Part shown: positions 19,143 through 26,417 of the stretch, piece by piece
Position numbering within the stretch: the first letter of the stretch is position 1
How the letters are laid out: the number at the start of each line of letters is the position of its first letter
Source of the DNA: an uncultured bacterium
Lineage (GTDB): Bacteria; Verrucomicrobiota; Verrucomicrobiia; Verrucomicrobiales; Akkermansiaceae
Direction: 5' to 3'
Length of the DNA: 56,655 nucleotides
Assembly (NCBI GenBank): GCA_945947905.1
Contig: CAMEZO010000004.1
Location: 1-56,655, forward strand
Made by a program: the position numbers and the translations under genes
The notes under the pieces: model-generated
What the model was told of the DNA's origin: nothing
Database searches by the model: none
The model's input: the letters and a program-made list of their open reading frames with translations, nothing else

Positions 19143-19156
19143 TATCGAGGGGAGCC

Positions 19157-19446
19157 TGACCGCGGAATAAAGGGAATTTTCGGAGAGTTCGGGGCATACT
19201 TAGCTCGGCACAGACTGCATGCCGCCGGGGTAGTAGGTAACTGAAGTTTTCAGAACGCAGAATTTCAGGAAGGTTTCGGAAACTGATCGGCATACTTAGC
19301 TCGGTTCAGACTGCATGCCGGCGGGATAGTAGTTCCCTTGATTGTTTGATAAAATTCTAAAGCTACCTATCGTGAACATGCTCCGACGTCTTGCCTGAGA
19401 GCAGCATGATATACAGTCTCCGAAAATTCCTTTTATTCCGCGGTCA
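19157..19446. repeat. 290-bp element with 30-bp inverted ends; left boundary of the Cascade island
   Basis: The left end (19157-19186, starting TGACCGCGGAATAAAGGGAA) is the inverted complement of the right end (19417-19446) at 29 of 30 positions. Inside are two 44-bp direct repeats, 19193-19236 and 19289-19332, 40 of 44 identical and 96 bp apart (GGCATACTTAGCTCGG, two variable bases, CAGACTGCATGCCG). The arms look loosely related further inward, so the whole element is an imperfect palindrome. The right half recurs, diverged, at 26232-26360 on the far side of the cas operon and recombinase. Confidence 0.85.
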
Positions 19447-19451
19447 TTCTC

Positions 19452-19464
19452 CACTCGCTCTCTA
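19452..19464. repeat. 13-bp repeat flanking the cas operon, copy 1
   Basis: CACTCGCTCTCTA, downstream of cas5e; identical to 25008-25020 upstream of the first operon gene, in the same orientation. Confidence 0.6.
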
Positions 19465-19487
19465 TAACCCCCGTGCTGTGAAGTCTC

Positions 19488-20177
19488 TCATTCCGTGAGC
19501 AGTGCAGTGATAGCAGCGGGGTCCGTGATGCGGCGCAGGGGGCGGTAATCGCAGGCGCGCCCTGCGCGGCCGGAGTTGCCGGGCAGGCCGAAGGAAAGCG
19601 GGCGGTCCCGGAGCAGTAGGTCGGCGGCCTCCGTGTTATCCGGCTGCCACCACAGCTCGCGGATGCGGCGGGGGCCGTGCAGCAGCAGGCGGTGTGCCTC
19701 GGCGGCGGGCATCACCGGCTTACGCACCGGAGGCTCGGCGGGGATGCAGCATTTGCGCCCCAGCCAGATGCCGCGCCGCGGGTTGCGCAGGACCTCGGCG
19801 GCGTGGCACAGGAAATCCCGGTCCGTCGACTCGAGCAGCACGCAGTAGCGCTCATCCTGCCGGTAGAAACGCCGCGTGACCACCGTGGGCAGGGGCGAAC
19901 CGTTCACGGCGCGGGTGCCGAGGACAGTGTGAAAATCGCAGAGCGGGGCGCGTGACGGGGCGTCGCCCAGGGCCACACTGTGCATGCGCGCCGCGCGGAA
20001 CCCGGCGATGATACGTGCCTCCTCGTCGCTCCCCTTGTCGGCCCCGGCGGCGGCGCATACCATGCCGCAGACCGCGCTCAGTGACGGCGCGACCCCGGCC
20101 CCGCGTTCCTGAAACAGGCTGTCCGTTCCCCAGGCCTGCAGCGGGGCTGCGAAGTGCAGCAACAGGGCGTGCATCAT
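19488..20177 (-). CDS. cas5e: type I-E CRISPR protein Cas5e (CasD)
   Basis: A 229-residue RAMP protein. The N-terminus HALLLHFAAPLQAWGTDSLFQERG matches the Cas5e pattern (lllrLeaPlqsWG), and PSLSAVCGMVCAA is the following conserved helix. In Cascade, Cas5e holds the 5' handle of the crRNA and contacts Cas8e. The C-terminal part includes RRFYRQDERYCVLLES. It overlaps Cas7e by 4 nt (ATGA) and is the last gene of the six-gene operon. Length is normal (224 in E. coli). No cas1 or cas2 follows; the next DNA is the 290-bp element. Confidence 0.93.
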   Translation of the reverse strand: MMHALLLHFAAPLQAWGTDSLFQERGAGVAPSLSAVCGMVCAAAGADKGSDEEARIIAGFRAARMHSVALGDAPSRAPLCDFHTVLGTRAVNGSPLPTVVTRRFYRQDERYCVLLESTDRDFLCHAAEVLRNPRRGIWLGRKCCIPAEPPVRKPVMPAAEAHRLLLHGPRRIRELWWQPDNTEAADLLLRDRPLSFGLPGNSGRAGRACDYRPLRRITDPAAITALLTE

Positions 20178-21220
20178 GGGGCGAGCGGGGCAATCAGGGA
20201 CTCCGTGAATTCATCGGCGCACTTATCAGGTAACTCGACTGTTACCTCAGCCTTCAGGTTCCAGGTATGCTGCATCTGCCGGAAGAAGCTCCGCAGGCGT
20301 TCGCGGCTCGGTGCGGCATAGCCTCCCTCCGGCAGCACGGGGTCCTCGAAGGCGGCGGCCAGCTGCAGGGGGCAGCCGCTCCGTCGGTGCAGGCCCAGGG
20401 CGTAGTCGGGCAGGCAGGAGGCGCACATCGACCCGCGCCGGGCCGACGGTGCCGCGCGCAGGGCGGAGTCAACGAAGGCGCGGAGCAGCAGGCGCAGGGT
20501 CTCCGCATCCGGCTGTCCCAGGTTTTCGCGCAGCAGGTCCACGTTCAGCCCCACATAGCGATAGTAGCAGGCGGAGTGGAACTCAAGCATGCCGCCGCCC
20601 GCGCCCGCGGATAACAAGTCATCCGCCGTCGTGAAGTAATCTAACTCCGGCTCGCAGAGGTGGGTGGATATGGCATGGGTATACATCGCGGCGGCCTCGG
20701 TGGAGAGCTCGGGGTCGGAGGTAACCATGCGCCCGAAGAGCGCGATATCAGCCGCATCGCTCATCAAGTGCCCGCGCGGCAGGGCCTCCGCAGCAGCCTT
20801 GGCCAGCTCGGCCGGAGTGGCCTTTGGTTTCTCCTCGCGCCGGGCCAGGGCGGTCTGTACCATCAGCTGCGCCTCGGCGGGGGAGAAGTAGACGGGAGCG
20901 GCGGCGGCGGGTTCGCTTTTGCGGGCATCCACCTTGCACCAAATGCCCGCCAGGGCCGCGGCGAGGGCCTCTGCGCCGGCGGCTCCGCGGGCTTGCAGCA
21001 GGCCCAGCAGGTAGCCGGGCAGCAGGCGGGTGCGTATGCCGCAGCCGTGCTGCGGGGCCAGCTCGCGGAAGAGGCGGCGCTGGCTGCGTTTCATGCACTG
21101 GGAGGAGATGCGGGCGCGGCGCACGCCGCCGTAGTAGGCGCTTTTCGCCGCCCCTAGGTCGTCGCGGTTCGGACAGCAGACGGGGTAACTTTGCAACAGG
21201 TGCAGTTCGAGGAGTTCCAT
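20174..21220 (-). CDS. cas7e: type I-E CRISPR protein Cas7e (CasC/Cse4), Cascade backbone
   Basis: A 348-residue protein. The N-terminus ELHLLQSYPVCCPNRDD, then GAAKSAYYGGVRRARISSQC and MKRSQRR, is the classical Cas7e signature (hxLQsxPxxxxNRDdxGxxKxaxxGGxxRxRiSSQ). Six copies normally coat the crRNA spacer. The C-terminal half contains MCASCLPDYALGLHRR. The start at 21220 (ATG) is chosen over the open frame upstream, which overlaps Cas6e and encodes a non-homologous arginine/proline-rich extension. It lies 2 nt after the cas6e stop and overlaps cas5e by 4 nt. Confidence 0.95.
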   Translation of the reverse strand: MELLELHLLQSYPVCCPNRDDLGAAKSAYYGGVRRARISSQCMKRSQRRLFRELAPQHGCGIRTRLLPGYLLGLLQARGAAGAEALAAALAGIWCKVDARKSEPAAAAPVYFSPAEAQLMVQTALARREEKPKATPAELAKAAAEALPRGHLMSDAADIALFGRMVTSDPELSTEAAAMYTHAISTHLCEPELDYFTTADDLLSAGAGGGMLEFHSACYYRYVGLNVDLLRENLGQPDAETLRLLLRAFVDSALRAAPSARRGSMCASCLPDYALGLHRRSGCPLQLAAAFEDPVLPEGGYAAPSRERLRSFFRQMQHTWNLKAEVTVELPDKCADEFTESLIAPLAP

Positions 21221-25213: not shown

Positions 25214-26188
25214 ATGAACAACGGAAAAATCCTCAAAGGGCTGGAATTGAGCCGCACGGACGCGGAGCGGCTTGTCGCGGAATGCGCGGAAGAAATCGGC
25301 GGCGCGGGCATGCCGCGGGCGGAGCTGATGGGCCGCATACGGAGCGTCCTGCGCCTGGGGGCGGAGGCCATGCGCGCACGGGAGCGGACGGTGAGTGTGC
25401 GCGAGGCCGCAGAAGCCGCCTTGGCCGCTCGGCAGGGACTGCGCCCCGTCACCATGCGGGACCTGCGCTACTACACCCGGCGTCTCTGCGCGGACGCGGC
25501 GCTGGCGGAGCGTCCCCTGCGCGCCGTCCGTGCCCCGGAATGCCGCGCCTATCTGGAGCGCACCTACGGCCACAGCCGCAGCGCGTACCGCAAGGCCCGC
25601 AGCGTGCTGCACACCGTCTTTGCCTACGGCTACCGACACGAGTGGTGCGACTCCAACCCCGTGGACCGCGTAGAAGTACCCAAGGTACAGGAACAGGAGA
25701 TACGCCCGCTGAGCTTGGCCGAGGCCGAGCGCCTGCTGAGCGTCGCCCGGCGTCCGGAGCACGCGGCCATGCGCCTCTCGCTGCATCTCATGCTCTTCTG
25801 CGGCATCCGCCCCACGGAGGTGCAGCGCCTCAACCCGCAAACGGACATCGACCGACAGGGGCGCCGCGTCCTCATCCGCCCGCAAAGCAGCAAAACCGGC
25901 GGCGGCCGCGCCGTCCCGCTGCGCGCGGGCACCCACCTGCTCCCCCTCTGCATCCCGCGCAACTGGAACCGCCGCTGGCAAGCCCTCCGCCGCGCCGCCG
26001 GCTTCTCCCACTGGGTCCCGGACGTCCTGCGGCACACCTTCGCCACCTACCACGCCTGCACCTTCCGGAACCTCCCCGCCCTCCAGTGCGAGATGGGCCA
26101 CAGCAGCACCGCCCTCCTCCGCACCCGCTACGTCAACACCACCGCCATCGCCCCCCGCGACGCCCGCCGCTTCTGGGCCACAAAGTAA
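25214..26188 (+). CDS. tyrosine-type site-specific recombinase (integrase)
   Basis: A 324-residue phage-integrase-family enzyme. The N-terminal SAM-like core-binding domain is about residues 60-145 (VSVREAAEAALAARQGL, TYGHSRSAYRKARSVLHTVFAYG). The catalytic domain shows CGIRPTEVQRL (first arginine), SSKTGGGRAVPL (lysine), DVLRHTFATYH (second arginine; the preceding histidine of the HxxR box is replaced by aspartate), MGHSST (second histidine) and RTRYVNT (nucleophilic tyrosine). The form LRHTFATYH...MGHSST is, as I recall, common in Verrucomicrobiota integrases. It is transcribed away from the Cascade operon and ends 43 nt before the right island repeat, the usual place for an integrase next to its att site. 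The start at 25214 is preferred over 25181. Confidence 0.9.
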   Translation: MNNGKILKGLELSRTDAERLVAECAEEIGGAGMPRAELMGRIRSVLRLGAEAMRARERTVSVREAAEAALAARQGLRPVTMRDLRYYTRRLCADAALAERPLRAVRAPECRAYLERTYGHSRSAYRKARSVLHTVFAYGYRHEWCDSNPVDRVEVPKVQEQEIRPLSLAEAERLLSVARRPEHAAMRLSLHLMLFCGIRPTEVQRLNPQTDIDRQGRRVLIRPQSSKTGGGRAVPLRAGTHLLPLCIPRNWNRRWQALRRAAGFSHWVPDVLRHTFATYHACTFRNLPALQCEMGHSSTALLRTRYVNTTAIAPRDARRFWATK

Positions 26189-26231
26189 TGCCCCCTCCCT
26201 CTACTATAAAGAATGCCCCACCGCCCCCGCG

Positions 26232-26360
26232 CAGACTGCGCGCCGCCGGGGTCGTAGGTCTCTTAGTTATTTCAATATCCCCTAAAGCTGCCTACTATGG
26301 ACCTGCATCGTGGCTTCACCGTAGATCCGGTTTCCCAAAAATCCCTTCCTTCCGCGGTTA
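26232..26360. repeat. right copy of the island repeat (diverged half-element)
   Basis: Aligns with 19307-19446: CAGACTGC, then CCGGGGTCGTAG, CTTAGTTATTT, CTAAAGCTGCCTA, TGGACCTGC and finally TTCCGCGGTTA. It is 129 bp against 140 bp, in the same orientation. It ends 19 bp before the -35 of lacZ. Confidence 0.8.
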
Positions 26361-26379
26361 GGGCGGCGGCACTTTGTTC

Positions 26380-26408
26380 TTGCTAAGCGGGGGGAGAGAT
26401 GGTATAAT
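26380..26408 (+). promoter_or_regulatory. lacZ promoter
   Basis: TTGCTA (26380-26385), 17-bp spacer, TATAAT (26403-26408); ATG at 26418. It starts just outside the island repeat. Confidence 0.8.
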
Positions 26409-26417
26409 GCCCGCGAT

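Follow-up and report, generated by a model that had tools for sequence, protein, structure and literature searches.

A nuclease-less type I-E Cascade behind a predicted phase-variable promoter in a gut Akkermansia genome

The window analysed here is a 56,655-nt stretch of contig C4 from the genome of a gut Akkermansia (GenBank assembly GCA_945947905.1; 2.19 Mb, 171 contigs, 97.4% complete). It contains a complete type I-E Cascade at 19488–23596, located behind two lipoprotein genes (lip2 and lip1), and a tyrosine recombinase gene that diverges from them. We hypothesize that these genes form a phase-variable operon from which two lipoproteins and a nuclease-less Cascade are made, a reading to which we assign a probability of about two thirds (0.68). 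The recombinase (25214–26188) would invert a 137-bp segment between two inverted repeats (25030–25052 and 25190–25212). In one orientation, a −35 element at the segment edge and a fixed −10 element outside the repeat would switch on lip2-lip1-cas8e::cas11e-cas6e-cas7e-cas5e, while in the opposite, assembled orientation the operon promoter would be incomplete. The type I-E ancestor would have lost cas3, cas1, cas2 and the array, and cas8e would have fused to cas11e, with fast evolution under continuing selection. When switched on, the Cascade would most likely bind DNA under RNA guidance without cutting it, using guides of unrecognised origin.

The inverted repeat flanks the divergent promoter region and had been missed in an earlier note on this DNA, written by a model from the sequence. 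The two arms enclose a short segment between divergent genes, which is the arrangement expected of an inverton. On account of this repeat pair, the role of the recombinase, which has a Phage_integrase catalytic domain with the R, R, H and Y motifs, was reinterpreted. Paralogues in the same genome (contigs C38 and C50) and homologues in other Akkermansia have repeats 124–157 bp apart, directly upstream of the recombinase gene. When upstream regions were scored for repeats with fixed criteria, a score of at least 13 was reached by 7 of 13 recombinase upstreams, compared with 4 of 242 upstreams of other genes and 87 of 3,000 random windows. The recombinase on C50 and its homologue in a sister species (locus L195) are orthologues (310/336 amino acids identical). 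Their 151-bp upstream segments are in opposite orientation (93% identical), whereas the gene side is in the same orientation (96%); the segment is inverted between the repeats at these orthologous loci. Promoter inversion at the window locus is considered likely.

The predicted promoters were scored as consensus matches. At all eight repeat-bearing loci, one orientation scored higher for a promoter directed towards the operon (favourable orientation 8.2–14.2 bits, other orientation 2.7–10.4 bits; 95% level of shuffled sequences 8.5 bits), with the two orientations nearly equal at locus L189. In the better orientation, the −35 element is supplied by the segment edge, the arm of the operon-side repeat forms the 17–18-bp spacer, and the −10 element lies beyond that repeat. 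This orientation would complete the operon promoter; the match is clear in most relatives and weak in the window. As assembled, seven loci including the window are predicted to be off and one (L197) is predicted to be on.

The operon reads leftwards in the order lip2, lip1, cas8e::cas11e, cas6e, cas7e, cas5e, with gaps of 2–13 nt or overlaps; since the gaps at lip1 and lip2 are 12–13 nt, the lipoprotein genes and the cas genes were considered a single operon. Family models assigned each of the four Cas proteins to type I-E, and family-model searches detected no nuclease domain, HNH included, in any Cas protein of the window. Cas8e and Cas11e, two separate genes in relatives, are one protein in the window (Cse1 match at residues 4–395, Cse2 match at residues 496–584), and its Cas8e part is shortened compared with relatives. 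The only candidate internal starts for a free Cas11 near residue 456 were TTG and GTG codons without a Shine-Dalgarno sequence. In the alignment, the YxxH motif of Cas6e has its conserved His, and the G-rich loop at the C-terminus is likewise retained. The family search with lip1 and lip2 matched nothing beyond the signal peptide, and the search for relatives gave short, weak matches only. Single-sequence structure predictions were uninformative (pLDDT 37 for the fusion, 35 for lip2). The block holds cas, lipoprotein and tyrosine recombinase genes only and is flanked downstream by an MFS/PlsC gene (stop at 19142) and on the opposite side by lacZ (start at 26418). The earlier note had named this gene set (Cas8e-Cse2, Cas6e, Cas7e, Cas5e, two lipoprotein genes and a diverging tyrosine recombinase) and both flanking genes, and all were found where it had placed them.

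Table 1. Features of the Cascade block and its borders (positions in the window)
Feature	Position	Strand	Basis or remark
Dispersed repeat cluster copy, ~96-bp units, ends TGACCGCGGAATAAA..., downstream border	19155..19446	.	
cas5e, 229 aa, no extra domain	19488..20177	-	Pfam Cas_Cas5d 4.5e-23; TIGR01868 5.7e-27
cas7e, 348 aa	20174..21220	-	Pfam PF09344 9e-81; TIGR01869 above cut-off
cas6e, 199 aa from GTG; alternative ATG 21852	21223..21822	-	TIGR01907 1.3e-30
cas8e::cas11e fusion, 600 aa; Cas8e ~1–450, Cas11e ~455–600	21794..23596	-	Pfam Cse1 4.7e-34, Cse2 5.9e-7
lip1, predicted lipoprotein, 231 aa, lipobox followed by Gly run	23609..24304	-	sequence; no family match
lip2, predicted lipoprotein, 213 aa, first gene of operon	24318..24959	-	sequence; no family match
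Predicted fixed −10 box TAGACT of operon promoter, outer edge of left inverted repeat	25029..25034	-	
Left inverted repeat, 20/23 complementary to right arm, perfect 14-nt core 25039–25052	25030..25052	+	
Predicted invertible segment, 137 bp, carrying −35 element	25053..25189	.	
Predicted −35 box TTGCAT, segment edge on recombinase side	25185..25190	+	inversion would set it 17 bp from TAGACT
Right inverted repeat, ending 1 bp short of recombinase start codon	25190..25212	+	
Tyrosine recombinase, 324 aa, predicted promoter invertase, diverges from operon	25214..26188	+	Pfam Phage_integrase 4e-13
Degenerate partial copy of dispersed repeat, other border	26229..26362	.	homology to sister genome resumes at 26365

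The remaining parts of a type I-E system were not detected. No type I-E cas3, cas1 or cas2 was found on any contig of the 97%-complete genome. Its other CRISPR loci are of types I-C and II-C only, and loci of these types have been reported for human-associated Akkermansia (PMC8278651). Cas1 occurred in two loci, a type I-C locus with an array (C129) and a II-C-like locus (C58). The sole full Cas3, at the end of C51, matched type I-E Cas3 weakly. It is distant from type I-E Cas3 and sits where its contig ends. We regard it as part of the I-C system, the locus of which is cut off by the end of C129. Weak matches to Cas3 models on C70, C1 and C128 were rejected as type I-E Cas3, since none resembles it; the one on C128 is an RNA helicase. 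Arrays were sought with a pattern scan and a covariance-model scan. The pattern, which fits nearly all type I-E repeats of relatives, gave scattered single matches in the genome, near background. The covariance model, built from 16 type I-E repeats of relatives, gave single weak places of at most 16.7 bits, compared with 37–47 bits for the positive control (consensus repeats of true arrays). The type I-E parts beyond Cascade were not found in the assembly; with an assembly this fragmented, their absence does not amount to proof. The earlier note's description of a Cascade without a nuclease was thereby supported, with cas3, cas1, cas2 and the array lacking in the locus and in the rest of the assembly. 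Its alternative, that Cas3 and an array are located elsewhere, found no support in the genome-wide search.

Cas8e was present in 7 of 76 genomes of the genus and in 25 of 387 genomes of the order. All other type I-E loci read in the order contained cas3, and mostly cas1, cas2 and an array as well unless the contig or locus was cut. None of them matched the window arrangement, and searches of the order's 387 genomes, of viral and genome contigs and of plasmids gave no second fused Cascade. Apart from a recombinase fragment near locus L031, the other type I-E loci of the order lacked a recombinase and lipoproteins beside cas, which speaks against an old, conserved partnership. The earlier note had named two observations as counting against its reading: a type I-E cas3-cas1-cas2 set with an array elsewhere in the genome, which was not found, and relatives without the recombinase and lipoproteins, which are indeed what the order contains. 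The fragment at L031 (18340–18483) is 71% identical to the window recombinase and is located ~4.6 kb upstream of cas3 in a canonical type I-E locus of another Akkermansia.

In a tree constructed with Cas5e, Cas7e, Cas6e and Cas8e, the window Cascade was placed inside the type I-E clade of the genus (support 100/100); it descends from the ordinary type I-E system of the genus. Its end branch was roughly threefold longer than that of the sister species' locus (1.84 versus 0.59), and its G+C content was 70%, compared with 45–60% in the clade. Because of the long branch and the differing G+C content, its exact place inside the clade is unsure. The window proteins retained 163 of 190 columns that are invariant in all the others (86%; by protein 25/28, 75/89, 31/35 and 32/38) and 26–39% of variable columns, while relatives retained 94–100% of the invariant ones. 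This pattern indicates a fold under selection, with constraint altered or loosened. All four frames were intact, with no stop in ~1,380 codons. In a simulation of neutral drift at 0.05 changes/site, the four frames all stayed open in only 1% of runs, and unconstrained drift past ~0.03–0.05 changes/site is therefore unlikely.

The block is bordered by two copies of one repeat in inverted orientation relative to each other. These repeats are the exact limits of homology to the sister genome, which breaks off at 19155 on the left side and at 26365 on the right side. The earlier note had described homologous repeats at both borders; they are present (19155–19446 and ~26229–26362), but they do not hold as island-specific ends, since the repeat is dispersed genome-wide (96 matches at up to 3 mismatches; reversed control 0). 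As they are dispersed, the border repeats were also rejected as transposon ends. Homology probably ends at the dispersed repeats because rearrangements occur there. In the sister genome the flanking genes are ~25 kb apart (rearranged), so a clean empty site was not obtainable. No Tns, TniQ or other transposition genes were found in the block, and nothing indicated a mobile element that has ends of its own. The dispersed repeats occur as palindromic clusters of ~195, 291 or 387 bp, often at contig ends, and no mobilising enzyme was identified. A suspected remnant of the repeat upstream of lip2 was not confirmed. On C95 (locus L014, 527–8353), the same dispersed repeats adjoin a second member of the recombinase family, truncated where the contig ends; a histidine kinase and genes without assigned function lie between the repeat copies. 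Upstream of the MFS/PlsC gene, the window carries genes for a DNA cytosine methyltransferase, a companion protein and a Vsr-like endonuclease (13579–16371). These are missing at the matching place in the sister genome, which suggests that the spot acquired two blocks.

The earlier note had considered guided integration, with the tyrosine recombinase replacing a transposase. The Cascade would then direct the recombinase, and the border repeats would be the ends of a mobile element, as might be read from the inverted copies around the block and the exact stop of sister homology; distant relatives of the recombinase are, moreover, Akkermansia phage integrases. Yet promoter inversion is the role that suits the recombinase family, whose members lie beside other neighbours at promoters with inverted repeats. 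The repeats at the borders are dispersed, Tns and TniQ genes are absent from the block, and no linkage of cas and recombinase was seen in the other type I-E loci read, save the fragment near L031. This proposal was not supported and appears extremely unlikely. It is also very improbable that the Cascade belongs to a normal type I-E system acting in trans, with cas3, cas1-2 and the array left unassembled (171 contigs, 97% complete), or with Cas3 and guides supplied by the I-C system. The fragmented assembly and the difficulty of assembling arrays speak for this reading, but type I-E cas3, cas1, cas2 or a convincing repeat were found on no contig, relatives hold all parts at one locus, and the I-C repeat of the genome is unlike type I-E repeats.

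A relic in slow decay is a serious rival, although we regard it as rather unlikely. The type I-E locus, shorn of cas3, cas1-2 and the array, would be carried behind the lipoprotein genes while decaying, and the switch would matter for the lipoproteins only. The long branch, the shortened Cas8e, the absent array, the loss of 27 of 190 otherwise invariant residues and an arrangement seen in no other genome would all suit decay. It is harder to reconcile with four intact frames that are tightly coupled and overlapping, with the retained His and Gly-rich loop of Cas6e, with the stops that neutral drift would introduce by ~0.03–0.05 changes/site and with retention at invariant sites far above that at variable sites. 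A fixed divergent promoter, with the recombinase as an inert neighbour and the operon constitutive or conventionally regulated, would agree with the weak promoter match of the window and with inversion not being seen here. However, the size, spacing and position of the repeat pair are those of the family, in which orthologues show inversion, and we consider a fixed promoter improbable. Several observations weigh against a phase-variable operon with a selected Cascade. Of the eight predicted promoters, that of the window (TTGCAT-17-TAGACT) scores lowest; its 8.2 bits are slightly under the shuffled 95% level of 8.5 bits. The window locus comes from a single assembly, with inversion seen only at C50/L195 and not at the window, and several relatives of the recombinase are without a clear repeat pair. 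The 27 lost residues are far above the losses in the relatives tested and fit early decay as well. There is no array and hence no known guide RNA for the window Cascade. The phase-variable operon nevertheless remains our preferred reading, and we infer that the segment inverts here, that the predicted promoter is functional and that the complex can bind both RNA and DNA. That the Cascade still works as a DNA binder falls a little short of even odds. Only tentatively, it may be a domesticated Cascade, a stochastically switched, cut-less RNA-guided binder acting as a phase-variable regulator of the CRISPR interference type or as a blocking defence, with guides from outside a classical array.

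Other members of the recombinase family often adjoin restriction or defence genes, and the Cascade operon fits this company. In the same genome, type I restriction-modification (R-M) genes adjoin the recombinase on C38, and an Snf2/HKD gene and Septu genes adjoin the one on C50. An Mrr-helicase restriction gene of the type IIG kind is found beside the recombinase of locus L185, and an MmeI-type gene beside that of L195. Further neighbours of the family were ankyrin genes, glycosyltransferase genes and genes without assigned function. As the orthologues on C50 and at L195 face different defence genes, modules appear to be swapped beside a conserved switch. The orthologous recombinases concerned lie beside Snf2/HKD with Septu at L013 (2268–8624) and beside MmeI-type R-M at L195 (115–2087).

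CRISPR-Cas expression is usually regarded as regulated or constitutive. In the literature searched, no paper contained the phrases tried for phase-variable CRISPR, which is weak evidence of novelty. The novelty is the combination, since cas3-less type I-E variants and Akkermansia invertons are each already known. The window shares the effector gene order 8e, 11e, 6e, 7e, 5e with the type I-E systems of the genus (e.g., locus L032 of the sister species Akkermansia sp. SUG1064). It differs from them in the lack of cas3, cas1, cas2 and an array, in the fusion of cas8e to cas11e and in the lipoproteins and inverton upstream. Variants related to type I-E, including Cas5-HNH, are mostly without cas3, and in some HNH variants cas8 and cas11 are fused (Altae-Tran 2023, PMC10910872). 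The window Cascade is, like the Cas5-HNH and Cas8-HNH variants, related to type I-E and cas3-less, but it has no HNH or other nuclease and no array nearby. CRISPR-associated transposons (Tn7-like and Mu-like) also have a Cascade without Cas3; in contrast to these, the window contains no transposase genes, and its tyrosine recombinase is located at a predicted invertible promoter. A Cascade whose fold was retained under selection after the loss of nuclease, adaptation and array raises two questions: which other uses Cascade may have, and what the source of its guides is.

Verrucomicrobiota have been reported as rich in invertons, one of which, the cps1 switch, controls the capsule of Akkermansia (PMC13343947). 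As in the cps1 inverton, inverted repeats in the window surround a short segment, with a downstream operon that would be on or off. The repeat sequence is different, however, the recombinase is directly beside the repeat, and the operon encodes a Cascade. If the switch works as proposed, only part of the population would make the Cascade and the two surface lipoproteins. A further parallel is phase-variable R-M: in this genome and the sister genome, R-M genes of type I and type IIG are faced by members of the recombinase family. In the window, the system controlled would instead be an RNA-guided complex without a nuclease, as predicted from its genes. A Cascade behind an inversion switch would, if true, add CRISPR effectors to the phase-variable defences, beside restriction systems with the same recombinase family.

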